A stretch of 64,000 nucleotides of DNA from Pseudomonas sp. Au-Pse12 (lineage in GTDB: Bacteria; Pseudomonadota; Gammaproteobacteria; Pseudomonadales; Pseudomonadaceae): contig NZ_JAJTTH010000010.1 in assembly GCF_021341665.1 (NCBI RefSeq), positions 124,001 to 188,000 on the forward strand. Direction: 5' to 3'. Positions 93 through 14,322 of this stretch are shown piece after piece. The notes beneath the pieces were generated by a model, which made no database searches, was not told the origin of the DNA, and saw only the letters and a list, made by a program, of their open reading frames with translations. Within the stretch, counting starts at the first letter, position 1. The number at the start of each line of letters is the position of its first letter. A program made the position numbers and the translations under genes.

Positions 93-748
<656 letters not shown>

Positions 749-764
749 GGCGTTCGCTGCGAAC

Positions 765-797
765 AAAAAAACGGCGCCCCGTGAGCGCCGTTTTTTT
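765..797 (+). terminator. Intrinsic terminator of nfuA
   Basis: A GC-rich hairpin (AACGGCGC, loop, GCGCCGTT) is flanked by an A-run on the left and a run of seven T on the right, starting 16 nt after the nfuA stop. The flanking A and T tracts would also let it work on the minus strand for transcription coming from cobM. Confidence 0.92.
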
Positions 798-835
798 ATG
801 CCCGCTCCCCCCCCAAAAAAAAAAGAACATCCAAT

Positions 836-891
836 GCCGGCGAACAGGCCCTTGAACCCGGTGTTGCCGGTGAGAGCGCCTGTTCGCTGGC
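836..891. repeat. REP-like inverted repeat (GCCGGCGAACAGGC type)
   Basis: GCCGGCGAACAGGC (836-849) pairs with GCCTGTTCGCTGGC (878-891), a REP/BIME-type palindrome of the kind scattered in fluorescens-group intergenic regions. On the minus strand it lies just after the cobM stop and is followed by a T-run (read from the A-run at 815-824). It may therefore act as the terminator of the cbtB-cobM operon. Confidence 0.6.
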
Positions 892-910
892 GACAGGGTG
901 GGGCGATGTT

Positions 911-1657
911 TCAGGGGCGGTAGAGGTGCGCGTGCCCAGCGCGGTACAGCGATGACTCGCTGAACGCATCCGTGGCCAGCACCCGGCCAACCAGAATCAG
1001 CGCCGTACGCCGGAAACCCTTGGCCGCAACCTTCTCGGCAATGTCCGCCAGGGTGCCCAGCGCCCAGTCCTGGTCCGGCCAGGTAGCCCGGTGCACCACG
1101 GCAATCGGGCAGTCGGCGCCGTAATGAGGCAGCAGTTCGGCGACGATCTTCTCCAGGTGATTGACCCCCAGGTGAATCGCCATGGTGGCGCCGTGGGCCG
1201 CCAGGCTGGCGAAGTCTTCACCGGCCGGCATCGAGGTCTTGTCCGCATAGCGGGTCAGGATCACGCTCTGGGACACATCCGGCAGGGTCAATTCGGCCCC
1301 CAGCAGTGCGGCGCAGGCGGCGGTGGCGGTGACTCCGGGGACGATCTCGAAGGGAATGCCCAGTTCCCGCAGGCAGCGAATCTGTTCGCCAATGGCGCCG
1401 TACAGGCTCGGGTCGCCGGAATGCACCCGGGCCACATCCTGGCCCTGGTCGTGCGCGTGCTTGATGGCCTCGATGATCTGTTCCAAGTGCAGTTCGGCGC
1501 TGTTGATCACCCGTTCCGCGCGATGCCCATCAAGCACCGCCTGGGGCACCAGCGAGCCGGCATAGATGATCACCGGGCAACGATGAATCAGGCGCTGGCC
1601 CTTGACGGTGATCAGTTCCGGGTCGCCGGGGCCGGCACCGATGAAATAGACAGTCAT
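911..1657 (-). CDS. cobM: Precorrin-4 C11-methyltransferase CobM
   Basis: A 248-aa SAM-dependent tetrapyrrole methyltransferase that methylates C-11 of precorrin-4 in aerobic cobalamin synthesis. The N-terminus VYFIGAGPGDPELITVKG is the family's SAM/precorrin motif. VHSGDPSLYGA follows near residue 80, and the C-terminal RTALILVG segment also fits the family. The start at 1657 puts the GAGPGDP motif at residues 7-13, as in homologues; the frame is open further upstream, but that extension is not family-like. It is the last gene of the minus-strand set led by cbtB, 83 nt after cobE. Confidence 0.95.
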   Translation of the reverse strand: MTVYFIGAGPGDPELITVKGQRLIHRCPVIIYAGSLVPQAVLDGHRAERVINSAELHLEQIIEAIKHAHDQGQDVARVHSGDPSLYGAIGEQIRCLRELGIPFEIVPGVTATAACAALLGAELTLPDVSQSVILTRYADKTSMPAGEDFASLAAHGATMAIHLGVNHLEKIVAELLPHYGADCPIAVVHRATWPDQDWALGTLADIAEKVAAKGFRRTALILVGRVLATDAFSESSLYRAGHAHLYRP

Positions 1658-1740
1658 GGCTGTGTCCTGTGCAAAAAAGGGCGGGAGCTGAGCGGTAGAT
1701 GAAGAGCGCTCATGTTCGAAGAGGGGAATTGTCGGCGATT

Positions 1741-2154
1741 CTACCGGGCAACGGCCAATGCCAGGGTGGCCTGGGCGCATTTTTGCCTGGGAACCCGCAG
1801 TTCGGCCGAGCCACCGGACAGCCTTTCGGCCAGGGCCAGGGCGGCACTTTCGGCGACGCCATAGCAGCCGCTGTGCTCGAAGGCGATGGGCGAACGATGG
1901 CTCAGGCGCGGGGCATAGGGGGCGAGCTGACTGCTGCTGAAGCAGGTCAGCGGCAGTTGCAGCTGTTCGGCCAGTTGCAGCAGGCCGGGCTCGTTGCGCT
2001 TGAGGTCGATGCTGGCCAGGGCCTGGATCTGCCGCGTTTGCAGGCGGTGCGCGGCCAGGACCTGGTCGAGCAGGGCGCGCAGTGTGGTCACCGGGCAGCC
2101 TTTCTGGCAGCCCAGGCCGACCACCAGGGTCGGCGCTGCGCTCACCTCGATCAT
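1741..2154 (-). CDS. cobE: Cobalamin biosynthesis protein CobE (CbiG C-terminal-like)
   Basis: A 137-aa protein matching the CobE/CbiG-C family (TLVVGLGCQKGCP near the N-terminus, then ...IDLKRNEPGLLQLAEQL... and an SSQLA segment). In the anaerobic pathway this domain belongs to CbiG. In aerobic Pseudomonas it stands alone as CobE, whose exact step in corrin ring synthesis is less settled. The start overlaps the cbtA stop by ATGA at 2151-2154, a sign of translational coupling. The frame continues upstream to 2424, but that part lies inside cbtA. Confidence 0.9.
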   Translation of the reverse strand: MIEVSAAPTLVVGLGCQKGCPVTTLRALLDQVLAAHRLQTRQIQALASIDLKRNEPGLLQLAEQLQLPLTCFSSSQLAPYAPRLSHRSPIAFEHSGCYGVAESAALALAERLSGGSAELRVPRQKCAQATLALAVAR

Positions 2155-2852
2155 GCCGGGTACTGGCCCGCGCCCTTGCGTCGGAACAGCCAGGCGCTGA
2201 TCAGCCCGAGGGCCAGCCAGAACGCCGCGTTGGTCAGCTGCGAGGCGATCTTGAACTGCGCTTCCAGTTCTTCCGGGGCCAGCATCGAATGCACGTCCGG
2301 CTGTGGCGCGCCGATCACATGGGGCACGACGAGGATGGCCGCGCCGAGGATCTTCAACAGCCAGTGCTGGGCGAACACGATCAGGGCAATACCCACGGCG
2401 GTGGACGCGGCGGTGCCGACCCACCAGATCTGCCGTTGCGCCAGGTCGGCCGCAGCGGTGCCCGGCAACTCCGGCGGCAGGCCCAGGGTTGGCGCCAGGC
2501 AGAAGGTCGCATAGCCGGCCAGGCCCCAGAGCAGGCCCTGGGACGTGCGGTTGGGCGCGCGCAGGGTATAGAGCCCGGCCAGCATCAGGGCAAAGCCCAC
2601 GGCCACCACCAGGTTGCCGCCGGTGGTCGACAGCACGCGCTGCCAGCCGTCTTCCGGTTCCCAGGCCTCGGCGTCGTGGCTGTGGCCGGCCATGGCGCCG
2701 TCGGCGTGCTCGTGGACTTCGGTCGCCGGGGCTTTTTCATAGGTTTCCGCCTGCAGAATCAGCGGGGCGACCCAGAAGCTTTGCAGCAGGGTCAGCAGCA
2801 GGGCGGCCAGCAACCCGGTGAACCCCGCGGTTTGCGCGATACGCTTGATCAT
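2151..2852 (-). CDS. cbtA: CbtA family cobalt transporter subunit
   Basis: A 233-aa integral membrane protein of the CbtA family, predicted on comparative-genomic grounds to take up cobalt with CbtB. It has a hydrophobic N-terminal segment (MIKRIAQTAGFTGLLAALLL), a His/Glu-rich stretch (HEHADGAMAGHSHDAEAWEPE) that could bind metal, and several further membrane segments. It follows cbtB by 11 nt and overlaps cobE. The cobalamin riboswitch upstream of cbtB should shut down this transporter when B12 is plentiful. The transport role is inferred from the family. Confidence 0.9.
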   Translation of the reverse strand: MIKRIAQTAGFTGLLAALLLTLLQSFWVAPLILQAETYEKAPATEVHEHADGAMAGHSHDAEAWEPEDGWQRVLSTTGGNLVVAVGFALMLAGLYTLRAPNRTSQGLLWGLAGYATFCLAPTLGLPPELPGTAAADLAQRQIWWVGTAASTAVGIALIVFAQHWLLKILGAAILVVPHVIGAPQPDVHSMLAPEELEAQFKIASQLTNAAFWLALGLISAWLFRRKGAGQYPA

Positions 2853-2863
2853 GTCGGCAGGTC

Positions 2864-3052
2864 TCAGTGGCAAGGGAAGGCGGCGCTGTGGCGGGTATCG
2901 TGGGCCGCGTTGTGCACCGCTTCGATGTGCGAGAAACCGGCGAAGTACACCAGGCAGGCGCCGAGGATCGAGGCGCCGATGGCGGCCACCAGGCGCTGGC
3001 TCAGGGTGGAGGTGCTGCTGGCGGAGTGGCTGGTGCTGCTGATGATCGACAT
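2864..3052 (-). CDS. cbtB: CbtB family cobalt transporter subunit
   Basis: A 62-aa single-span membrane protein. It has one hydrophobic segment (VAAIGASILGACLVYFAGF) and a C-terminal His motif (HIEAVHNAAHDTRHSAAFPCH) typical of CbtB, which probably contacts cobalt. The start at 3052 is preceded on the minus strand by AGGGAAG, a clear ribosome binding site. It is the first gene after the minus-strand cobalamin riboswitch and forms a tight pair with cbtA. Confidence 0.92.
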   Translation of the reverse strand: MSIISSTSHSASSTSTLSQRLVAAIGASILGACLVYFAGFSHIEAVHNAAHDTRHSAAFPCH

Positions 3053-3165
3053 GGCGCTTCCCTTTTTTGAGTATCGGCGGGTAGCGGCGCAGGAAAACCC
3101 CGCGTGACCGGCACGCAGGGTTTGCAACAGCGCCCGCCCACCGCGGGTTTGTTATGTAGGTGTTG

Positions 3166-3371
3166 CGGGCCGGTCTCCGGGCTCGCGAGGGGCAGGGGCC
3201 GAGTCATGTCGTACCGTGCCGGCAAGTGTCGCCTTCCCATGCCATGGGCACAGTGGATCTGACACTTCGCTCGCTTACCGTTGCGGGGGCAGCACCGGAC
3301 TGGCCACGGCTTTTTAGTTAAGCACGTGATTCACCGGTTTCCCGTTTCACCCTGTGAAGGGCACCCGTAAC
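3166..3371 (-). promoter_or_regulatory. Cobalamin riboswitch upstream of cbtB
   Basis: Read on the minus strand from 3371, the sequence shows the conserved cobalamin aptamer elements in order: GGTGCC..., AGGGTGAAACGGGAAACCGG, GGTGAATC, the core GCTGCCCCCGCAACGGTAAG, and near the 3' end the closing AGCCCGGAGACCGGCC. It lies about 115 nt before the cbtB start. Binding of adenosylcobalamin is expected to lower expression of cbtB-cbtA-cobE-cobM. Confidence 0.93.
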
Positions 3372-3489
3372 AAGGCGCGTAGGAAATCATGGGCGGGGCA
3401 GGGGCGTCAATTGTCGTGAACGGGGCGCTCGCCGGGCGCCGCCGGCGCATTGCCGATTGACCGTCCTCCGCGCTCTGCGTAGCCTTGCG

Positions 3490-3695
3490 CGTTCGAGGTT
3501 CTTCGGCCGGCGGTCGAAGCTAAGAAGGGAACGCGGTCGATGCCGCGGCTGCCCCCGCAACTGTGAAGGGTTTCGTTTCTGCAAGGCCACTGCCTGCGCG
3601 TCCAGAACGCCGGCGGGAAGGCGCAGCAACCGCCGGTCCGACGACTGGCAAGCCCTCAGCCAGGAGACCTGCCTCGATCCCAGATTCTCACTACA
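3490..3695 (+). promoter_or_regulatory. Cobalamin riboswitch upstream of cobW
   Basis: A second, independent cobalamin aptamer on the plus strand: GAGGTTCTTCGGCC, AAGAAGGGAACGCGGT, the core GCTGCCCCCGCAACTGTGAAG, a long variable arm, and the closing AGCCAGGAGACCTGCCT. It ends about 95 nt before the cobW start and should control cobW, cobN and chlI/chlD. The ~120 bp between the two aptamers must hold both divergent promoters; no clear -35/-10 pair could be assigned there. Confidence 0.93.
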
Positions 3696-3788
3696 ACCGG
3701 GCGGGGTGATCCGGTGGCGAAATCTCCGCGCGCCCTTGCGCCGCGGCTCTCGTCCCGTATGCCCGCCACCTTTGCCAAGGGGCATCCG

Positions 3789-4859
3789 ATGAAAACACTG
3801 GCCAAACTTCCCGTCACCATCGTCACCGGCTTCCTTGGTTCGGGTAAGACCACCTTGCTGCGGCACATGCTGGACAACGCCCAGGGCCGGCGCATCGCGG
3901 TGATCGTCAACGAGTTCGGCGAGCTGGGCATCGACGGCGAAATCCTCAAGCAATGCGCCATCGGCTGCACCGAGGAAGAGGCCAGTGGCCGGGTCTACGA
4001 ACTGGCCAACGGCTGCCTGTGCTGCACCGTGCAGGAAGAGTTCTTCCCGGTGATGCGTGAACTGGTGGCGCGCCGTGGCGACCTGGACCACATCCTTATC
4101 GAAACCTCCGGCCTGGCCCTGCCCAAGCCCCTGGTCCAGGCCTTCCAGTGGCCGGAAATCCGCAGCGCCTGCACCGTCGATGCGGTGATCACCGTGGTCG
4201 ACAGCCCGGCCGTGGCCGCCGGCACTTTCGCCGCCTTCCCCGAGCAAGTGGACGCCCAGCGCAAGCTCGACCCCAACCTGGACCACGAATCGCCGCTGCA
4301 CGAGCTGTTCGCCGACCAGCTGTCCAGCGCCGACCTGGTGATCCTCAACAAGACCGACCTGATCAACCCCGCCGACCTGGCCAAGGTGCGCCTGGAAGTG
4401 GCCGAGGAACTGCCGCCGGCGGTGAAAGTCATCGAAGCCAGCAGCGGTCGCCTGCCGCTGGACGTGCTGCTGGGCCTGGGCGCCGGTTCCGAGGAACACA
4501 TCGACGCTCGCCACAGCCACCACGACCATCACCACGACGGTGATGACGATCACGACGACCACGATCACGACGCCTTCGATTCCATCTCCATCGAACTGCC
4601 CCAGGCCGACGAAAGCCTGCTGCTGGACGCCCTGACCCAGCTGGTGGTCAAGCACGGCATCCTGCGGGTCAAGGGCTTTGCCGCGATCCCCAACAAGCCG
4701 ATGCGCCTGCTGATCCAGGGTGTGGGCACCCGCTTCGACAAGCACTTCGACCGCAAGTGGGGCGCCGATGAAGCCCGCACCACGCGCCTGGTGCTGATCG
4801 GCCAGGAACTGGATGCCGCCCAGCTCGAAGCGCAACTGCGCGCCGCGCTCAGCGTGTAA
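3789..4859 (+). CDS. cobW: CobW GTPase, cobalt metallochaperone-like
   Basis: A 356-aa G3E-family P-loop GTPase. It has a Walker A motif GFLGSGKT (residues 14-21), the metal-binding CLCC motif (76-79), an NKTD guanine-specificity motif and a C-terminal CobW_C domain. A histidine/aspartate-rich loop lies at about residues 240-262. CobW-type proteins are thought to deliver Co(II) to the CobN chelatase. The start at 3789 is chosen because AAGGGG precedes it and the P-loop then sits where the family has it; the frame is open back to 3714 without a better start. It lies 3 nt from cobN, under riboswitch control. Confidence 0.95.
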   Translation: MKTLAKLPVTIVTGFLGSGKTTLLRHMLDNAQGRRIAVIVNEFGELGIDGEILKQCAIGCTEEEASGRVYELANGCLCCTVQEEFFPVMRELVARRGDLDHILIETSGLALPKPLVQAFQWPEIRSACTVDAVITVVDSPAVAAGTFAAFPEQVDAQRKLDPNLDHESPLHELFADQLSSADLVILNKTDLINPADLAKVRLEVAEELPPAVKVIEASSGRLPLDVLLGLGAGSEEHIDARHSHHDHHHDGDDDHDDHDHDAFDSISIELPQADESLLLDALTQLVVKHGILRVKGFAAIPNKPMRLLIQGVGTRFDKHFDRKWGADEARTTRLVLIGQELDAAQLEAQLRAALSV

Positions 4860-4862
4860 GCC

Positions 4863-7800
4863 ATGCACCTGCTCAGGACCCAGCCCGGCGGTTTCGTCTC
4901 GGATGACAACATTGCCGACCTTGGACAAACCCCCGCCGAGCTGGTGATCCTGTGCAGCGGTGATTCCAGCCTGGCGCTGCTGGCGGACGCCGCCGAGCAG
5001 TTGCCCGAGGATTACCCCAGTTTTCGCCTGGCCAACCCGATGCAGGTGCAGAACCACGCCTCGGTCGACCTGTATGTCGACCAGGTGCTGCGCCACGCCA
5101 AGGTGATCCTGATTTCCCTGCACGGCGGCATTGCCTACTGGCGCTACGGCGTTGAACAGTTGGTGGCGCTGTCCCAACGTGGGGTGCAGCTGATTCTGGT
5201 GCCGGGGGACGACCGCCCGGACCCGGAGCTCAGCGACCTGAGCACGCTGCCTGCCGTCGAACGCGACCGCCTGTGGCAGTTCCTGCGCCAGGGCGGGCGG
5301 GACAACGCGCTGAATTTCTACCGTTGCCTGGCCAGCGGCCTGCTGGGGCGCGACTACCCCTGGAGCGAACCGCAGACCCTGCCACGCACGGCGATCTACC
5401 ACCCGCACAAGAGCCAGGCCGTCCTCAGCGACTGGCAAGTCGATTGGCAGCCTGGTCAAGCAGTGGCGGCGCTGCTGTTCTATCGCTCCCACTTGCAGGC
5501 GGCCAACACCGGCTTTATCGACCTGTTCTGCCAGCGTTTGCTGGCGGCGGGCCTCAACCCCTTGCCAATAGCGGTGGCCAGCCTCAAGGAGCCCGGTTGC
5601 CTGAGCCAGGTGGAGGACTGGCTGGATGAAACCGCGGCCGGGGTGATCCTCAACACCACCGGCTTTGCCCAGTCCAGCCCGGAAGCCCCGCACCTGCGGC
5701 CGTTCCGGCGCAATATCCCGGTGATCCAGGCCATTTGCGCCCAGGACAACGAGCCGGGCTGGCGCGACAGCGAGCAGGGCCTGGGCCCGCGGGACCTGGC
5801 CATGCACATCGCCTTGCCGGAACTGGACGGGCGCATCATCAGCCGACCCATCAGCTTCAAGGACCTGGCCTGGCGCAGCGAACGCAGCCAGTCGGACGTG
5901 GTGTGCTACCGCGGCCAGCCCGAACGCATGGATTTTGTCGCCGAGCTGGCGCGGCGCTGGGTCGAGCTGGGGCGCCTGGACAACGGCCACAAGCGCATTG
6001 CCCTGGTGCTGGCCAACTACCCGACCCGGGATGGGCGCATCGGCAACGGCGTCGGCCTGGACACTCCGGCGGCGGCGCTGAACATCCTCATGGCCCTGCA
6101 CGCCGAAGGCTATCCGCTACCGGCCGAGCTGCCCGCCAGCGGCACCGAGTTGATCCAGCAGTTGCTGGGCGGGGTCAGCAACGACCTGGACAGCCTCGAC
6201 CAGCGTCCGTGCCAGCAAAGCCTGGCCCTGGACGACTACGCGGCGATGTTCCAGGCCCTGCCGCCCGCCAACCGTCAGGCCGTCCTGGCGCGCTGGGGCA
6301 GCCCGCAGCAGGACCCGATGTTCCGCAACGGGCGGATGATGATCGCCGGCCTGCGCTTTGGCCTGACCTTCGTCGGCATCCAGCCGGCCCGGGGCTACCA
6401 GGTGGACCCCAGCGCGGTGTACCACGACCCGGACCTGGTGCCGCCCCACGGCTACCTGGCGTTCTACTTCTGGCTGCGCCAGGCCTACGGCGCCCACGCG
6501 CTGATCCACGTCGGCAAGCACGGCAACCTGGAGTGGCTGCCGGGCAAGGGCGTCGGCCTGTCGGAGAACTGCTGGCCGGACGCGTTGCTGGGGCCGCTGC
6601 CAAACATCTACCCGTTCATCGTCAACGACCCGGGGGAGGGCGCCCAGGCCAAGCGCCGCACCCAGGCGGTGATCATCGACCACCTGATGCCGCCGCTGAC
6701 CCGCGCCGAAACCTACGGCCCGCTGCGCAACCTGGAACTGCTGGCGGACGAATACTACGAAGCCCAACTGCTGGACCCACGGCGTGCGCGGGAGCTGCAG
6801 CGGGACATCCTGCAACTGGTGCGCGAAACCCATATCGACCGCGAGCTGCAACTGGAGGGCGCGCTCGACAGCGACACCGACGCCGCCCTCTGGCTGCCAC
6901 GGCTGGACACCTACCTGTGCGACCTCAAGGAATCGCAGATCCGCGACGGCCTGCACGTGTTCGGCGAGTCCCCCGACGGCCGCCTGCGCATCGACACCTT
7001 GCTGGCCTTGCTGCGCATTCCCCGGGGCGATGGCAAGGGCGCCCACGCCAGCCTGTTGCGGGCCCTGGCCAAGGCCTTCGGCCTGGGCTTCGATCCGCTG
7101 GACTGTGCCCTGGCCGAACCCTGGACCGGGCGCCGGCCGCAGCCGTTGCGGCAGATCAGCGATGGGCTCTGGCGCACCGCCGGCGATACGCGCGAGCGCC
7201 TGGAACTGTATGCCGCCGAGTTGATCGAGGCGGCGCTCCAGGGCCCGCTGGCGCAGCTGGATGAACCCGGCTGGGAGCCGGTGCAGAGCATTATCGAGGG
7301 CCTGCGTGAAGTGGTCGCGCCGCGCCTGGACGCCTGCGGCCCGGCGGAAATGCGCGGCCTGCTGGAGGCCCTGAACGGGCGTTTCGTTCCGGCCGGCCCC
7401 AGCGGCGCGCCCAGCCGTGGGCGCCTCGATGTGCTGCCCACCGGGCGCAATTTCTACTCGGTGGACGTGCGCAACCTGCCCACCACCACTGCCTGGCGCA
7501 TCGGTTTCCAGTCGGCCAGCCTGATCCTCGAACGCCACCTGCAAGACCACGGTGATCACCTGCTGCACCTGGGCCTGTCGGTGTGGGGCACCGCGACCAT
7601 GCGCACCGGCGGCGACGACATCGCCCAGGCCATGGCCCTGATGGGCGTGCGCCCGGTGTGGGCCACCGGCAGCCAGCGGGTCGACGATTTCGAGATCCTG
7701 CCCCTGAGCCTGCTGGACCGGCCGCGGGTCGACGTGACCCTGCGGGTGTCCGGGTTCTTCCGCGACGCCTTCGCCAACCTGATCCGCCTGTTCGACGCGG

Positions 7801-8636
7801 CGGTGCAGGCGGTGGCGGCCCTCGACGAACCCGATGACCTGAACCCGCTGGCGGCCAGGGTTCGCGCCGAGCGCGCAGCCTTGATCGCCTCCGGCCTGGA
7901 CCAGGACACCGCGGCGCGTCAGGCCGGCTGGCGGATCTTCGGCGCCAAGCCCGGGGCCTATGGCGCCGGGGTCCAGGGCGCTATCGACGGTCGCCTGTGG
8001 CAGAGCCGCGAAGACCTGGCCGAGGTCTACCTGAACTGGGGCGGCTACGCCTATGGCGGCCAGGATGAAGGCACCGCCGCCCGCGAGCAGTTCGCCTCCC
8101 GCCTGAGCCGGGTGCAGGCGGTTGTGCAGAACCAGGACAACCGCGAGCACGACCTGCTGGATTCCAACGACTACTACCAGTTCCAGGGCGGCATGCTGGC
8201 GGCGGTGGAAAGCCTCGGCGGGGCCAAGGCCGCCAGCTATCACGGCGACCACAGCCAGCCGGACCTGCCGAAGATCCGCACGCTCAAGGAGGAACTGAAC
8301 CGGGTGATCCGTTCCCGGGCGGCCAATCCGAAGTGGATCGAAGGGGTCAAGCGGCACGGCTACAAGGGCGCCTTCGAAATGGCCGCGACCCTGGACAACC
8401 TGTTCGCCTTCGACGCCACCACCGAGCTGATCGACGATCACCAGTACGCCTTGCTGGCCGATGCCTACCTGCTGGACGACTCGACCCGCGAGTTCGTCCG
8501 CCAGCATAATCCCCACGCCCTGCGCGACATGACCGAGCGCCTGCTGGAAGCCCAGCAGCGCGGCCTGTGGCAAGAGCCCGGCGAGTACCGCGAGGCCCTG
8601 GAGCACCTGTTGCTGGATATAGAAGAAGACTCCTGA
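4863..8636 (+). CDS. cobN: Cobaltochelatase large subunit CobN
   Basis: A 1257-aa CobN/BchH-family protein, full length for the family. This large subunit binds hydrogenobyrinic acid a,c-diamide and inserts cobalt with ATP-driven help from AAA+ partner subunits. Recognisable CobN blocks include HVGKHGNLEWLPGKG (about residue 550), the region around GLSVWGTATMRTGGDDIAQA, and a C-terminal YKGAFEMAATLDNLFAFDA segment. The start is 3 nt after the cobW stop with little ribosome binding site of its own, suggesting coupled translation. The long open frames antisense to it are composition artefacts. Confidence 0.96.
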   Translation: MHLLRTQPGGFVSDDNIADLGQTPAELVILCSGDSSLALLADAAEQLPEDYPSFRLANPMQVQNHASVDLYVDQVLRHAKVILISLHGGIAYWRYGVEQLVALSQRGVQLILVPGDDRPDPELSDLSTLPAVERDRLWQFLRQGGRDNALNFYRCLASGLLGRDYPWSEPQTLPRTAIYHPHKSQAVLSDWQVDWQPGQAVAALLFYRSHLQAANTGFIDLFCQRLLAAGLNPLPIAVASLKEPGCLSQVEDWLDETAAGVILNTTGFAQSSPEAPHLRPFRRNIPVIQAICAQDNEPGWRDSEQGLGPRDLAMHIALPELDGRIISRPISFKDLAWRSERSQSDVVCYRGQPERMDFVAELARRWVELGRLDNGHKRIALVLANYPTRDGRIGNGVGLDTPAAALNILMALHAEGYPLPAELPASGTELIQQLLGGVSNDLDSLDQRPCQQSLALDDYAAMFQALPPANRQAVLARWGSPQQDPMFRNGRMMIAGLRFGLTFVGIQPARGYQVDPSAVYHDPDLVPPHGYLAFYFWLRQAYGAHALIHVGKHGNLEWLPGKGVGLSENCWPDALLGPLPNIYPFIVNDPGEGAQAKRRTQAVIIDHLMPPLTRAETYGPLRNLELLADEYYEAQLLDPRRARELQRDILQLVRETHIDRELQLEGALDSDTDAALWLPRLDTYLCDLKESQIRDGLHVFGESPDGRLRIDTLLALLRIPRGDGKGAHASLLRALAKAFGLGFDPLDCALAEPWTGRRPQPLRQISDGLWRTAGDTRERLELYAAELIEAALQGPLAQLDEPGWEPVQSIIEGLREVVAPRLDACGPAEMRGLLEALNGRFVPAGPSGAPSRGRLDVLPTGRNFYSVDVRNLPTTTAWRIGFQSASLILERHLQDHGDHLLHLGLSVWGTATMRTGGDDIAQAMALMGVRPVWATGSQRVDDFEILPLSLLDRPRVDVTLRVSGFFRDAFANLIRLFDAAVQAVAALDEPDDLNPLAARVRAERAALIASGLDQDTAARQAGWRIFGAKPGAYGAGVQGAIDGRLWQSREDLAEVYLNWGGYAYGGQDEGTAAREQFASRLSRVQAVVQNQDNREHDLLDSNDYYQFQGGMLAAVESLGGAKAASYHGDHSQPDLPKIRTLKEELNRVIRSRAANPKWIEGVKRHGYKGAFEMAATLDNLFAFDATTELIDDHQYALLADAYLLDDSTREFVRQHNPHALRDMTERLLEAQQRGLWQEPGEYREALEHLLLDIEEDS

Positions 8637-8702: not shown

Positions 8703-9710
8703 ATGAGCGACACCCCCCATTTCCCGCTGTCCGCCGTGGTCGGCGCCGAAGCGCTGAAACTGGCCCTGTGCCTGACCGCCATTGACCCGAAGATCGGCGG
8801 CGTGCTGATCGAGGGCCCGCGTGGCATGGCCAAGTCGACCCTGGCCCGGGGCCTGGCGGATCTTCTGGCCAGCGGGCAGTTCGTCACCTTGCCCCTGGGC
8901 GCCAGCGAAGAGCGCCTGGTGGGCACCCTGGACCTGGACGCCGCCCTGGGTGAAGGCCGGGCGCAGTTTTCCCCCGGCGTGCTGGCCAAGGCCGACGGCG
9001 GGGTGCTCTACGTCGATGAAGTCAACCTGCTGCCCGATCACCTGGTGGACCTGCTGCTGGACGTGGCCGCCAGCGGCACCAACCTGATCGAGCGCGACGG
9101 CATTTCTCACCGCCATTCGGCGAAGTTCGTGCTGATTGGCACCATGAACCCGGAAGAGGGCGAACTGCGCCCGCAACTGCTGGACCGCTTCGGCCTCAAC
9201 GTCGCCTTGAGCGGCCAGCCGGCACCCGAAGAACGCGGGCAGATCATCCGCCGCCGGCTGGATTTCGACAGCGATCCTGAGGGGTTCTGTGCCCAGTGGG
9301 CCCCGGCCCAGGCGGTTTTGCGCGAGCGTTGCCAGCAGGCGCGGGCGGCCCTGGCCAGCATCCCGCTGGACGACCAGGCCCTGGCGCTGATCACCGAGCG
9401 CTGCTTTGCCGCTGCGGTGGACGGCCTGCGCGCCGACCTGGTCTGGCTGCGCGCGGCCCGGGCCCACGCCGCCTGGCGCGGTGCTCCGGCGATTGCCGAG
9501 GAAGATGTCGACGCCGTGGCCGAGTTCGCCTTGCGCCATCGGCGCCGGGAGACTGCGCCCAGCGCGCCGCCATCGGGGCCAAGCCCCCAGACGCCGGCAT
9601 CCGCCAACGCCAACCCCAGCGAAGGCCAGGGCCAATGGGGCGAAATGCCGGCCCAGGCCTTGCCCACCGGCGCCCGTCGAGAAGTGCCCAGCTGGCCAAA
9701 AAAGCCCTAG
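8703..9710 (+). CDS. chlI: ChlI-like AAA+ ATPase, small cobaltochelatase subunit (zero-frame product)
   Basis: A 335-aa Mg-chelatase-ChlI-type AAA+ ATPase. It has Walker A GPRGMAKS (about residues 39-46), Walker B VLYVDEVNLL (about 101-110), sensor segments near GTMNPEEGELRPQLLDRFGL and a C-terminal helical lid followed by a Pro/Ala/Ser-rich linker (about residues 280-330). The zero-frame product stops at TAG 9708-9710, two codons after an A AAA AAG slippery site. The AAA+ module would power CobN. In chlorophyll-free Pseudomonas a role in cobalt rather than magnesium insertion is the sensible reading, supported by position after cobW and cobN. Confidence 0.9.
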   Translation: MSDTPHFPLSAVVGAEALKLALCLTAIDPKIGGVLIEGPRGMAKSTLARGLADLLASGQFVTLPLGASEERLVGTLDLDAALGEGRAQFSPGVLAKADGGVLYVDEVNLLPDHLVDLLLDVAASGTNLIERDGISHRHSAKFVLIGTMNPEEGELRPQLLDRFGLNVALSGQPAPEERGQIIRRRLDFDSDPEGFCAQWAPAQAVLRERCQQARAALASIPLDDQALALITERCFAAAVDGLRADLVWLRAARAHAAWRGAPAIAEEDVDAVAEFALRHRRRETAPSAPPSGPSPQTPASANANPSEGQGQWGEMPAQALPTGARREVPSWPKKP

Positions 9711-10363
9711 GCATCCGCCCCCGTACTGACCAGGGGGCGGATGCCAAGCCCCGGGCGGGGCACCTGGATCAAGGTCGGCACGGCGCCAGTCGCGCGGCCG
9801 GCAGCGGCGCGATCAACTGGCCCGGCACCTTGCTCAAGGGCCGGCCACGGTTGCGCGAAGACCTGCTGTTTCGCCTGCGCCGCCGCGCGCCCCACGAACT
9901 GTGGCTGGTGATCGTCGACGCCTCGGCCTCGACCCGTCGCCACCGTGCCCTGAGCGACGCCAAGGGCCTGCTGGCGCAACTGTTCGACGACGCCTACCGC
10001 CAGCGCGCGCGCCTGGCCTTGCTCACCGCCAGCGGCCGCGCGCCGAACTGGCAGGTGCAGGGCCTGAAGGCCTCCAAGGACTTGCGGTACTGGCTCGACG
10101 GCCTCGGCGCCGGCGGCGGCACGCCCTTGCCACAGGCCCTGAGCGAAGCGGCCCGGTGGCTGGAACAGCGCCAGCGCCGCCTGCCGGCGGAGCAGCAGCG
10201 TGTGCTGCTGATCACCGATGGCCGGCTGAAAAGCCTGCCGCCGCTGCAGCCCCTGAACTGCCCGACCTTGCTGCTCGACATCGAACGCGGCCCGATCCGC
10301 CTGGGCCGGGCCCGCGAACTGGCCGCCGGCCTCGACGCCGCCTACCAACATATCGACCTGTAG
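8703..10363 (+). CDS. chlD: ChlD-like medium cobaltochelatase subunit made by programmed -1 frameshift
   Basis: If ribosomes slip -1 at 9698-9704, 334 zero-frame codons join 219 codons of the second frame to give a 553-aa protein: AAA+ domain, Pro-rich linker, then a von Willebrand A domain. The VWA part has a complete MIDAS: DASAS (in VIVDASASTRR), the Thr of GGGTPL and the Asp of ITDGR. AAA+ plus linker plus VWA is the architecture of the ChlD/CobT-type medium chelatase subunit, and the length fits. Production of both subunits from one gene by -1 frameshifting has been described for chlD-type genes near cobN in other bacteria. A separate initiation at ATG 9635 is the alternative. Confidence 0.82.
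9635..10363 (+). CDS. VWA-domain reading frame (second half of chlD)
   Basis: This frame encodes the VWA/MIDAS domain described under the chlD fusion. If translated alone, the only reasonable ATG is 9635 (242 aa), with AAGG about 11 nt upstream and a 76-nt overlap with chlI. The first ~25 residues from that ATG would be out-of-frame chlI linker sequence, and real domain similarity begins only after the slip site. That favours frameshift synthesis over separate initiation. Standard annotation may still show it as a separate VWA protein. Confidence 0.5.
   Translation: MGRNAGPGLAHRRPSRSAQLAKKALGIRPRTDQGADAKPRAGHLDQGRHGASRAAGSGAINWPGTLLKGRPRLREDLLFRLRRRAPHELWLVIVDASASTRRHRALSDAKGLLAQLFDDAYRQRARLALLTASGRAPNWQVQGLKASKDLRYWLDGLGAGGGTPLPQALSEAARWLEQRQRRLPAEQQRVLLITDGRLKSLPPLQPLNCPTLLLDIERGPIRLGRARELAAGLDAAYQHIDL
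9698..9745 (+). promoter_or_regulatory. -1 ribosomal frameshift signal: slippery heptamer plus stimulatory hairpin
   Basis: The heptamer A AAA AAG (9698-9704) is in exactly the phase needed for tandem -1 slippage (zero-frame codons CCA AAA AAG). After a 5-nt spacer (9705-9709) comes a perfect 13-bp hairpin: GGCATCCGCCCCC (9710-9722), 10-nt loop, GGGGGCGGATGCC (9733-9745). The zero-frame stop TAG overlaps the hairpin base. A weak GAGAAG lies about 14 nt before the slip site. All elements match the classical dnaX-type arrangement. Confidence 0.9.
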
Positions 10364-10938
10364 CCGCTGCCGCAGGCTGCGAACGGCCCGCAGGGCCGCA
10401 AAAACCCTGAGAGCGCTAGAGGTTCGTCGGTCGATCGCCAGGCAAGGTCCTGCGGACCTTTACGCAGCCTCGCCGAGGCTTGGCAGCGGCTACACCAATC
10501 CGAGGTTGTAGCCGCTGCCGCAGGCTGCGAACGGCCCGCAGGGTCGCAAAAACCCTGAGAGCGCTAGAGGTTCGTCGGTCGATCGCCAGGCAAGGTCCTG
10601 CGGACCTTTACGCAGCCTCGCCGAGGCTTGGCAGCGGCTACACAAATCCGAGGTTGTAGCCGCTGCCGCAGGCTGCGAACGGCCCGCAGGGCCGCAAAAA
10701 CCTGAGAGCGCTAGAGGTTTGTCGGTCGATCGCCAGGCAAGGTCCTGCGGACCTTTACGCAGCCTCGCCGAGGCTTGGCAGCGGCTACACCAATGCGAGG
10801 TTGTAGCCGCTGCCGCAGGCTGCGAACGGCCCGCAGGGTCGCAAAAACCCTGAGAGCGCTAGAGGTTTGTCAGTCGATCGCCAGGCAAGGTCCTGCGGAC
10901 CTTTACGCAGCCTCGCCGAGGCTTGGCAGCGGCTACAC
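10359..10938. repeat. Four tandem ~148-bp repeats with nested palindromes
   Basis: Four near-identical units start at 10361, 10509, 10657 and 10804 (periods 148, 148, 147). Each begins TAGCCGCTGCC and ends GGCAGCGGCTA, an 11-bp terminal inverted repeat, with inner palindromes GGTCCTGCGGACC and CCTCGCCGAGG. Units are joined by a ~15-nt spacer of the type CACCAATCCGAGGTTG. Units 1 and 3 share GGGCCGC where 2 and 4 have GGGTCGC, hinting at duplication of a two-unit block. The element is the common fluorescens-group GTAGCCGCTGCCGCAGGCTGCG repeat, probably a non-autonomous MITE/REP-like element. It fills almost the whole 602 bp between chlD and the next gene; nothing coding was seen in it. Confidence 0.93.
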
Positions 10939-10965
10939 TGCCTGCGCCAACACAGGAGTGATTTC

Positions 10966-12612
10966 ATGCGGGTAGTGGTGCGTAACGACAAGGACGATTT
11001 CCGGGTCAAGGCTTATGCCGGAACCAACGGGGTGCTGCTGGCCGTGGACCTGGACGCTTCACGGCGCCAGGGCCTGCTGGGGTTTGCCATCGAGAAGCAA
11101 ACCGGCAGCAAGCCCTGGCTGTTCCTGTTCAACAGCCTGACCTTTCCCGGCAAGGCCCACAGCTTCCCGCAATACAACGCCACCCCCAGCGATCAGGCGC
11201 CGCTGCAGAAGTTTCGCTGGGCCGACTACGCGGTCAACCCCGGTGCCACCCTCAACTACCGGGTGCACCTGGTGTATGGCAGCCCCGAGGCGCCGCAACT
11301 GGGTGAAGCCCTGGAACTGAGCATCAGCGCCGACAACGGCCAGCCACCGGGACAGCGGGTGATCTTCAATCGCGCGGTGGCCGCCAGTCAGGCCTTCTCG
11401 CGCAAGTTTCCCGAGCTCGATGCGCTGCTCAGCGCCAACAAGAACCTGGCTATCGAGGCGTGGCCGGATGCGCCCAGGCAATGGCTGGAAAACGGCCTGC
11501 TGGAGGAGCTGCTGGGCTTTATTCAGCGCGCCACGGACGCCAGCTGGAGCCTGGACATCGCCATCTACGAGTACCAGTTGCAGGCGATCATCGATGCGGT
11601 GAACGCGGCCTTCGACCGTGGCGTGCAGGTGCGGGTGCTGTACCACGCCGCCCCCGGCGATACCGACACCACGATGAACCAGGCCAGCCTGCAGCACCTG
11701 CCGCAGGACTGTCAGCGCGGGCGGGTGACCCACGCCATCTTCCACGACAAGTTCATCGTCCTCAGCCGCCTCGACGCCACCGGCCAGCGCCAGCCGCAGT
11801 CGGTGCTCTGCGGCAGCACCAACTTCACCGCCAACGGCGTCTACCGCCAGGCCAACGTGCTGCACAGCCTCGACCGCGCCGACCTTGCCGCGCGCTACCT
11901 GGAGGTGTTCGAACAGGTCTGGGCGACCCCGGCGGACGTCGGCGCCACCCGTCAATGGCTGACCCAGCACAACCCCATGCAAGCCGATGCGCCGCTGTTC
12001 GCCGGGTTTTCCCCGCGCAGCGGCCAGGGCGACCTGAGCGAATTCGTCGAGATCATCAACGGCGCCCGCCGCGACCTGCTGTTCGTCACCGCCTTCGCCT
12101 TGCCCGACAGCATTCTCGATGCCTTGCTCGGCCAGCCCCATGACGATGTGCTGCGCTACGGCCTGCAGAACACCGCCAGCCGCATCACCGGTTTCCACGC
12201 CGACCGCACCGCCGAGTTCGCCGCCACCGCGCTGCTCAACAACGGCCTGGAGGGCTGGCTCAAGGAGGGGCTCAAGGGCCAGAAGGGCAACCTGCTGGTG
12301 CACACCAAGGCCATCGTCACCGACTTCACCAGCGAGGCGCCGGTGATCATCAGCGGCAGCCACAACCTCAGCGTCGGCGCCAGCCAGAGCAACGACGAGA
12401 ACTTCCTGATCATCCGTGGCGACACCGACCTGGCGGACCGCTACGGCCTGGAACTGCTGCGCTTCTACGAGCACTACCGGTTCCGCTACTTCGCCAAGCA
12501 GCTGGCCCTCAAGCAGGTGCAGCCGCTGGCGGTGGACGACAGCTGGAGCAACGACTACTACCTGGAAGGCGATTTGCGCCAGTTGTCGCGGCTGCGCTTT
12601 TCCGGGCGTTGA
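10966..12612 (+). CDS. Phospholipase D-like protein with two HKD motifs
   Basis: A 548-aa protein with two PLD-type catalytic half-sites: HDKFIVLSRLD (about residues 261-271) and HTKAIVTDF (about residues 446-454). Two HxK motifs are expected to form one phosphatidyl-transferase or phosphodiesterase active site. The N-terminal ~180 residues (VRNDKDDFRVKAYAGTNGVLLAVDLD...) form a separate domain I do not recognise. No signal peptide is seen, so it probably acts in the cytoplasm or is released by another route. ATG 10966 is preceded by AGGAG; an upstream in-frame extension would run through repeat DNA and is rejected. The true substrate (lipid or nucleic acid) cannot be told from sequence. Confidence 0.8.
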   Translation: MRVVVRNDKDDFRVKAYAGTNGVLLAVDLDASRRQGLLGFAIEKQTGSKPWLFLFNSLTFPGKAHSFPQYNATPSDQAPLQKFRWADYAVNPGATLNYRVHLVYGSPEAPQLGEALELSISADNGQPPGQRVIFNRAVAASQAFSRKFPELDALLSANKNLAIEAWPDAPRQWLENGLLEELLGFIQRATDASWSLDIAIYEYQLQAIIDAVNAAFDRGVQVRVLYHAAPGDTDTTMNQASLQHLPQDCQRGRVTHAIFHDKFIVLSRLDATGQRQPQSVLCGSTNFTANGVYRQANVLHSLDRADLAARYLEVFEQVWATPADVGATRQWLTQHNPMQADAPLFAGFSPRSGQGDLSEFVEIINGARRDLLFVTAFALPDSILDALLGQPHDDVLRYGLQNTASRITGFHADRTAEFAATALLNNGLEGWLKEGLKGQKGNLLVHTKAIVTDFTSEAPVIISGSHNLSVGASQSNDENFLIIRGDTDLADRYGLELLRFYEHYRFRYFAKQLALKQVQPLAVDDSWSNDYYLEGDLRQLSRLRFSGR

Positions 12613-12744: not shown

Positions 12745-14322
12745 ATGGTTCATGTACGGCGTGACGTGTGGAAAATGACCAGCGATTGGGATGCCACCTT
12801 GCTCTGGTACGCCAAGGCGGTTGGCGTCCTGCAACAGCGACCGATCACCGACCGCACCAGTTGGCGGTTTCTCGCGGCGATCCACGGTTTTGACGAGGAC
12901 ATGTGGATCGACGCCGGTTATCTGCAAGAGGGTGAGAAGCTGCCGGGCGATGACGACCGTGGGCTGTACTGGAAACAGTGCCAGCACTCCAATTGGATGT
13001 TCCTGCCCTGGCATCGCGGCTACGTGGCCTCCTTCGAGCAGATTGTCCGCGATGCCGTCGTCTCGCTCGGTGGCCCCAAGGATTGGGCCCTGCCGTACTG
13101 GAACTACAACGGGGCGCAGAAAACCCTGCAACTGCCGCCGTGCTTCGCCGCCCGGACCCTGCCCGAGGGCGGTGGCAGGAACCCGTTGTACGTCGAGCGT
13201 CGCTACGGCCCCGATGGCAATGGCGAGGTGGTGCTGATAGCCGACTTGATCGGCCTGGGCTGCCTGGATGACCCGGTATTCGAAGGCGGCTACATGGGCA
13301 ACCCACCGGGGTTCGGGGGCACCCCCAGCAGCCAGGGCGGGCACAAGAGCGGCATCCGTGGCGGCCTGGAGGCGCGCCCGCACAACATTGTGCATACCGA
13401 AGTGGGCGGCGAGGATCAGGTCACGCCGGTGCCTGCGGGCCAAGACCCGACGCAGGGCTTGATGAGCTACCCCCAGACTGCGGCCCTGGACCCGATCTTC
13501 TGGTTGCACCACGCCAATATCGACCGCCTGTGGCAGGTCTGGCTGGACCGCAACGAGGACCACCAGAACCCTGATGTGGCCGACTGGTACAACGGCCCGA
13601 CCGGCCTGAACCGGCCCTTTGTCGTGCCCACCGTCAGCGGTCAGCCGTGGAAGTTCAAGGTGGCGCAGATGCTCGACACCCAGGCGCCCGGGCTCGACTA
13701 TCGCTATGACACCAGCGCCGCGGCCAAGCCTGGCGTCCACCCCTTGCACCAGCGCCTGGCGCGCCTGGGGCTGGCGGCCGAGCAAGTGCAGCAGTTCTCT
13801 ACCCAGGGGCTACTGATGAGCAACCAGCAGAACAGTGAATTGATCGGTGCCAACCAGGCGCCGCTGGGCCTGGTCGGCCGTTCGACGCAGACCCGCGTGC
13901 TGCTGGACAAGGCCACCACCCAGAAGGTGTTCGGCAGCCTCAAGTCGAACCTGCTGGCCGCCAGCCTGACCCCGCCGGACCGGGTATTCCTCAACCTGGA
14001 GAACATCCGCGGCAAGCGCGACTCGATCGTGTTGCAGGTCTATATCAACCTGCCGCCGGGTGCCGATCCGGACCAGCATCCGGAATTGCGCGCCGGGGTG
14101 CTGTCGCTGTTCGGCTTGTGCCAGGCCTGCCAGGTGGACGGTGATCACGGCGGTCAGGGCATCACCGAGGTGTTTGAAATCACCGACATCATCGACGCGC
14201 TGCATTTGAACGGCATCACCTCGGCGGATCAGCTGGACGTGCGTTTCATCTCCAAGACCCCGATCCGTCCGGAGGACCAGGTGACGGTCGCCCGGGTCAG
14301 CCTCACGCGGCTGGGTGGCTGA
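12745..14322 (+). CDS. Tyrosinase-type (type 3 copper) oxidase
   Basis: A 525-aa tyrosinase/polyphenol-oxidase-fold protein that would oxidise phenols to o-quinones with a dinuclear copper centre. Candidate CuA ligands are H47 (AIHGFD), H81 (CQHSNW) and H90 (LPWHRGY). CuB ligands are H213 and H217 (HNIVH) and a His of the signature DPIFWLHHANIDRLW (H255/H256). After the ~290-residue core comes a C-terminal domain (about 330-525) with a VFLNLENI and a VYINLPP strand, resembling the lid domain of polyphenol oxidases. No signal peptide is visible. Start 12745 has GGGAG upstream. The stop overlaps the start of the next gene by one base, so the two are coupled. Confidence 0.9.
   Translation: MVHVRRDVWKMTSDWDATLLWYAKAVGVLQQRPITDRTSWRFLAAIHGFDEDMWIDAGYLQEGEKLPGDDDRGLYWKQCQHSNWMFLPWHRGYVASFEQIVRDAVVSLGGPKDWALPYWNYNGAQKTLQLPPCFAARTLPEGGGRNPLYVERRYGPDGNGEVVLIADLIGLGCLDDPVFEGGYMGNPPGFGGTPSSQGGHKSGIRGGLEARPHNIVHTEVGGEDQVTPVPAGQDPTQGLMSYPQTAALDPIFWLHHANIDRLWQVWLDRNEDHQNPDVADWYNGPTGLNRPFVVPTVSGQPWKFKVAQMLDTQAPGLDYRYDTSAAAKPGVHPLHQRLARLGLAAEQVQQFSTQGLLMSNQQNSELIGANQAPLGLVGRSTQTRVLLDKATTQKVFGSLKSNLLAASLTPPDRVFLNLENIRGKRDSIVLQVYINLPPGADPDQHPELRAGVLSLFGLCQACQVDGDHGGQGITEVFEITDIIDALHLNGITSADQLDVRFISKTPIRPEDQVTVARVSLTRLGG

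Follow-up and report, generated by a model that had tools for sequence, protein, structure and literature searches.

A cluster of 23 magnesium chelatase genes with a −1 frameshift has been reported from Pseudomonas, Burkholderia, Delftia, Herpetosiphon, Methanocaldococcus and Methanococcus; annotations had treated each such gene as two neighboring ones (Antonov 2013, PMC3711429). In E. coli reporters, three genes showed 63, 40 and 10% frameshifting according to the same report. Under the heading 'Magnesium chelatase: also regulatory?', Atkins 2016 prints the stem of the Pseudomonas protegens fs-chlD gene together with its A_AAA_AAR shift site (PMC5009743). Kuznetsov 2022 describes an fs-chlD signal that leads to both the small and the medium subunits of Co-chelatase, and places P. 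aeruginosa at stage 8 (PMC9227772). Because these three publications report it, the phenomenon is already known, and almost the same site as the one analyzed here has been in print since 2016. The original prediction for our locus had stated that dual production from chlD genes near cobN is in the literature, and this is true to a greater degree than it claimed, since even the P. protegens stem has been printed.

We analyzed a window of 64,000 nucleotides from Pseudomonas sp. Au-Pse12; all positions given below are those of this whole stretch. A single chlD gene with a frameshifting signal reportedly yields the small and medium cobaltochelatase subunits (Antonov 2020, in Mol Biol Evol). From the sequence of the window and its comparison across the genus, we consider it very probable that one fs-chlD gene here likewise encodes two cobaltochelatase subunits of the aerobic B12 pathway by −1 ribosomal frameshifting.

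Anatomy of the frame junction

Across the junction (9696-9710, + strand) the zero frame reads CCA AAA AAG CCC TAG. The slippery heptamer A_AAA_AAG occupies positions 9698-9704 (+) and is separated by a spacer of 5 nt (9705-9709, +) from a putative stimulatory hairpin (9710-9745, +), in which a perfect, GC-rich 13-bp stem (9710-9722 with 9733-9745) encloses a loop of 10 nt. The wider inverted repeat, 9707-9722 with 9733-9748, is 94% complementary across 16 nt. The zero-frame stop codon TAG (9708-9710, +) overlaps the structure, its last G (9710) being the first base of the stem. Heptamer, spacer and hairpin, with their coordinates and the product lengths of 335 and 553 aa, had all been proposed beforehand, and each agrees exactly with the sequence. 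The contact between stop codon and stem, which had also been emphasized, is true in the window but is no general rule: the G-C version is present in 89 of 138 rows of the genus comparison.

The local fold of 71 nt reaches −40.5 kcal/mol (z −2.68) and was equalled by 2 of 200 shuffles. The heptamer alone is not rare, because AAAAAAG occurs four times on the two strands of the window against 1.58 expected, and 7 of 100 shuffles reach four copies. Of these copies, only that at the junction precedes a strong hairpin (−32.0 kcal/mol, versus −12.4, −14.2 and −5.2 for the others), and just 0.05% of 6000 45-nt stretches drawn at random from the window are as stable. Perfect 13-bp hairpins with loops of 3-15 nt number six within the window. 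Genus-wide conservation, presented below, is much stronger evidence than these chance odds within the window.

The two predicted products and their domains

The zero-frame open reading frame (8703-9710, +) encodes 335 aa of a ChlI-like AAA+ ATPase, the predicted small subunit, with AAA_lid_2, AAA_5 and Mg_chelatase domains. Its continuation in the −1 frame (9704-10363, +) adds 219 aa with a VWA domain (PF13519 VWA_2, 39.1 bits), so that the shifted product, counting 334 codons up to the AAG, would be a ChlD-like medium subunit of 553 aa. The best NCBIfam match of the zero-frame part is TIGR02442 ('putative cobaltochelatase', 641 positions), at 405.9 bits over part of the model and below the whole-protein cut-off of 779. 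The best stretches of the two parts cover model positions 88-339 and 459-641; that neither part reaches the cut-off is expected, because the gene is split between frames.

The VWA part carries the MIDAS-type motifs DASAS, GGGTP and TDGR. Among the 145 loci of the genus in which the whole layout is intact, Walker A and Walker B are present in all 145, DxSxS in 145, GGG[ST]P in 140 and [TS]DGR in 144, counted with the usual definitions of the Walker A, Walker B and VWA MIDAS motifs. The earlier claim that the −1 frame continues into a VWA domain with intact MIDAS is borne out by the VWA_2 match and the invariant DxSxS, and the domain matches and the comparison support the reading of the two products as ChlI-type and ChlD-type. 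By sequence, the gene would be classed as fs-chlD: a ChlI-like AAA+ frame is followed by a VWA frame in −1, with A_AAA_AAR in the right phase.

Conservation of the heptamer and frame layout

ChlI matches were obtained in 374 of 398 genus genomes at E 1e-60. From these we compared 150 loci, comprising the window, the 29 closest matches listed with their loci, 75 from a group of 80 distant genomes and 45 more from the genus match list. Partial or contig-cut matches in G076, G133, G162, G201 and G284 were left out; those in G034 and G080, partial too, were counted. A named set of 80 loci (67 Pseudomonas-type and 13 others) overlaps the 150-locus set and is not independent of it.

The heptamer A_AAA_AAG is intact in 147 of the 150 loci, in phase in 146 of them and, in L105, behind a broken ChlI frame. 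The three loci without it are L097, which is cut off ahead of the junction by a contig end, and the pair L110 and L111, which combine a changed heptamer with a broken ChlI frame. The distance from heptamer start to stop codon is 10 nt in 144 of the 146 in-phase loci and 7 nt in the other two, and of the 149 loci having a VWA match, 145 carry it in the −1 frame. The layout as a whole is preserved in 145 of the 150, the window among them. The named set gives the same picture: of its 67 Pseudomonas-type loci, 64 have the heptamer in phase, with the stop at 10 nt in 63 and at 7 nt in one, and the remaining three end before the junction. Alignment across Pseudomonas had been suggested as a check on the heptamer, and these counts answer it in favor of conservation.

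AAA serves as the first Lys codon in 147 of 147 loci, though AAG outnumbers AAA (426 versus 205) elsewhere in the same ChlI genes. The stop codon varies: among the 145 intact loci it is TAG in 88, TGA in 52 and TAA in 5. We note that in L139, L144 and L203 (P. koreensis) the sequence reads AAA AAG TAA, the stop following directly after the heptamer, 3 nt early, while the stem has not moved.

Conservation and covariation of the stem

Stem counts were made on 96 distinct junction sequences and 13 pairs. Standard pairs fill 82.3% of the stem cells, compared with 34.5-48.6% when the arms are slid by 1-3 columns. Cells changed on both sides number 61, against 23.6 in shuffles (0 of 500 as high) and 20-35 with slid arms; such both-side changes occur in 10 of the 13 pairs, against 6.5 in shuffles (5 of 500 as high) and 6-9 with slid arms. 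The covariation score is 0.166, versus up to 0.140 in slid arms. Further pair types in the stem were no more numerous than in the slid versions of these 96 sequences.

For the count on the tree we used 138 of 147 rows, leaving out L039, L063, L082, L096, L104 and L106-L109 because their 3' arm is displaced or their stem is another one. The clearest pair is formed by columns 18 and 43, with T-A in 68 rows, C-G in 61, T-G in 8, C-C in 1 and C-A in 0. In the −1 frame the 5' change of this pair is silent (ATC/ATT) but the one on the 3' side replaces an amino acid (GAT/AAT), so constraint on the codons does not by itself account for the pattern. On the ChlI tree, the best covarying pair shows only 7 changes on one side and 5 on the other (sign test median p 0.5, underpowered), pairs 21/40, 23/38 and 22/39 showed mixed directions, and the sign tests were underpowered for all pairs tried. 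The search for compensatory changes proposed at the outset thus has a qualified answer: judged from the alignment, pairing is kept through both-side changes in several pairs while the bases change, but few of the changes are independent.

RNAalifold recovered no hairpin from all 96 distinct junctions; with the nine rows with shifted or different arms removed, it returned a 6-pair stem from the remaining 87. Folded singly, each of the nine forms some hairpin (−14.9 to −23.8 kcal/mol), those of L108 and L109 being the weakest. The 45 nt after the heptamer are the most stable stretch of the gene in 80 of 147 loci, and in 44 loci at least 10 other stretches are as stable. A stem finder that permits starts at +12 or +13 served for viewing only. 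A downstream structure is predicted for the site, with a stem that is weaker in part of the genus and a putative stimulatory role. Evidence for an upstream Shine-Dalgarno-like stimulator was not convincing in the 147 loci, where pairing below −4 kcal/mol occurs in 18-22% at −18 to −13 and in 20% at −30 to −29, over a background of 8.7%.

Neighboring genes and co-occurrence with CobN

A cobalamin riboswitch (RF00174; 3479-3690, +; Rfam 97.7 bits, E 4.4e-24, full model) lies ahead of cobW-cobN-chlID, and the frameshifted gene is therefore probably B12-controlled too. The intervening genes encode a CobW-family GTPase (3714-4859, +; TIGR02475, 531.4 bits, cut-off 332) and CobN, the large cobaltochelatase subunit (4863-8636, +; TIGR02257, 1746.8 bits, cut-off 822). 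A cbtA-type gene and a cobM-type gene are found on the opposite strand of the window. Right after the VWA stop there are about 3.9 tandem copies of a 148-bp unit with inverted repeats (10359-10938), REP-like in appearance, and just downstream are genes for a PLD-like domain protein (10867-12612, +) and a tyrosinase-domain protein with DUF7868 (12745-14322, +).

In the window's genome CobS and CobT gave no match, though the positive controls respond, and no second close ChlI was found, the next best ChlI-like match being 30% identical (E 3e-9). With cobN adjoining the chlID gene, and no cobS, cobT or separate chlI found, the gene content is that of an aerobic cobaltochelatase of the CobN plus ChlI/ChlD type. 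CobT-family matches occur in 7 of 99 genus genomes (6 above cut-off; none in the window's genome), and three of these seven (G041, G042 and G060) are without this cobN.

The same 99 genomes (G000-G098) were used to assess how closely the two genes travel together. CobN is above cut-off in 93, and the same 93 genomes, with no others, have a ChlI match. Among the six genomes without a ChlI match, CobN has no match in four (G014, G041, G042 and G069) and only weak ones in G060 and G082. In G034 CobN is fragmented, and in G052 it is interrupted. For the 20 ChlI-less genus genomes listed, of 24, CobN is above cut-off in one, G273; its cobN ends 93 bases from the contig end, so the chlID gene may lie off the contig.

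Two further observations concern CobN-like proteins. Seven genomes without the gene pair (G060, G082, G180, G185, G242, G260 and G317) encode a CobN/ChlH-like protein; its open frames span 1408-1491 codons, and its scores fall well below the CobN cut-off. At L177 (genome G176), CobN and ChlI share one open frame of 1582 codons (543-5291), with A_AAA_AAG intact behind it; this is possibly a CobN-ChlI fusion protein, or else ChlI starts at an inner start codon.

Relatives beyond the genus

A class survey of 274 gammaproteobacterial genomes gave 17 matches at E 1e-45, 16 of them besides the window's own. In four of the 16, an A run leads up to the stop in a −1 layout: L160 and L161 with A7G, L162 with A_AAA_AAG CCC TGA, and L157 (genome G588), where an A10G run precedes the stop and the VWA domain is in the −1 frame. 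ChlI and VWA share one frame in six, L159 has its VWA match in the +1 frame, and the remaining five lack a VWA match nearby and look like separate ChlI genes.

Among the 13 loci of the named set outside Pseudomonas, eight, marine gammaproteobacteria and others, join both parts in a single frame, and four (three Caballeronia and one Cupriavidus) have a −1-frame VWA behind seven A, a run found in L252, L254, L255 and L260. The 563-codon frame of L258 has no VWA match and holds N.

Alternative explanations

The two products could instead come from different mRNAs, if transcriptional slippage on the A run left one base more or less. The site does contain such a run, longer ones occur outside the genus in the A10G, A7G and seven-A loci just described, and longer A runs gave more frameshift product in published reporters (Antonov 2013, PMC3711429). 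Within the genus, however, the run is fixed as A6G in 145 of the 147 loci with an intact heptamer and has seven A in only two, and because it stays at six we regard transcriptional slippage as highly improbable. The codon phase suited to a tandem slip, the spacer and the downstream stem are also kept, and transcriptional slippage would presumably need none of them. An equally small probability attaches to the idea of two genes, with the VWA protein arising from its own initiation or from re-initiation after the TAG. Start codons in the −1 frame are indeed available downstream in the window (TTG at +132 and +153, GTG at +210 from the heptamer), but a −1-frame ATG, GTG or TTG lies at −40 to +50 nt of the heptamer in only 19 of 145 intact loci, or in 12 if upstream TTG codons are disregarded, which makes re-initiation unlikely. 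ChlD would moreover lose its AAA+ part, and the fixed heptamer and stem would be left unexplained. Homologs in other bacteria join ChlI and VWA in one frame (6 of 16 in the class survey and 8 of 13 named non-Pseudomonas loci).

A sequencing error or a decaying gene in the window's strain deserves almost no weight. The junction is a homopolymer, and four genus genomes do have broken-frame copies: G034, with five A in the run and with both ChlI and CobN disrupted; G080, where the heptamer is changed and ChlI is broken while the neighboring CobN is intact; and G164 and G245, which keep the heptamer and have a further frame break, CobN being broken too in G245. The layout is nevertheless intact in 145 of 150 loci, including the window, which refutes this explanation, and an assembly error is excluded because the heptamer is kept in 147 of 150. 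If the window had merely suffered an error, the two frames should already be one in other strains, a possibility raised in the original prediction. ChlI and VWA matches share a frame in only three of the 150 loci (L105, L110 and L111), every one with a broken ChlI frame.

Proposed mechanism and possible regulation

Our preferred explanation is −1 ribosomal frameshifting; that ribosomes slip here, how often they do so and which enzyme results are inferences. Ribosomes would start at 8703, and some would stop at the TAG at 9708 to give the 335-aa ChlI/CobS-like AAA+ subunit. Lys-tRNAs would occupy the P and A sites at A_AAA_AAG while the GC-rich hairpin, beginning 5 nt farther on, holds the ribosome; some ribosomes would then slip back one base and read into the VWA domain, giving the 553-aa ChlD/CobT-like subunit. 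Both products would then assemble with CobN, encoded just upstream, as cobaltochelatase.

Rather than giving a fixed ratio, the frameshift might act as a switch: by binding a divalent metal, for which cobalt is the obvious choice, or by sensing supply in another way, the stem would set the ratio of small to medium subunit. The stem is long, with a purine/pyrimidine strand bias, and the idea of a triplex and a divalent cation has been put forward by Atkins et al. 2016 (PMC5009743). We give this reading little credence, including its corollary that the inserted metal would set the subunit ratio while the B12 riboswitch sets the mRNA level.

The locus is a clean case of one gene predicted to supply two enzyme subunits. 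Our survey, with the heptamer intact in 147 of 150 loci and exact co-occurrence with cobN in 99 genomes, broadens the published finding and adds no new principle; a new contribution would be to measure how often the shift takes place in Pseudomonas and how cobalt or B12 affects it.

Comparison with known systems

In E. coli dnaX, the −1 frameshift is assisted by a downstream stem-loop and a Shine-Dalgarno stimulator, and the shift shortens the protein. The heptamer of dnaX is the identical A_AAA_AAG (PMC5009743). Unlike in dnaX, the shift would lengthen the protein in the window, and a dnaX-type Shine-Dalgarno stimulator is not clearly present in the fs-chlD loci.

Within the chlD family itself, the A runs reported as tested in Antonov 2013 were 11, 9 and 7 long, and the A6G of the window is not among them (PMC3711429); the parts of the published accounts of this gene family that we consulted gave no shift rate for an A6G site. 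As far as the fs-chlD model is set out in the consulted part of Kuznetsov 2022, the window gene does not differ from it in substance (PMC9227772). The closest described counterpart is the stem-loop of P. protegens printed by Atkins 2016: compared by eye with window positions 9707-9748, its 42 nt are identical at 40, and the two differing bases lie in the loop (PMC5009743).
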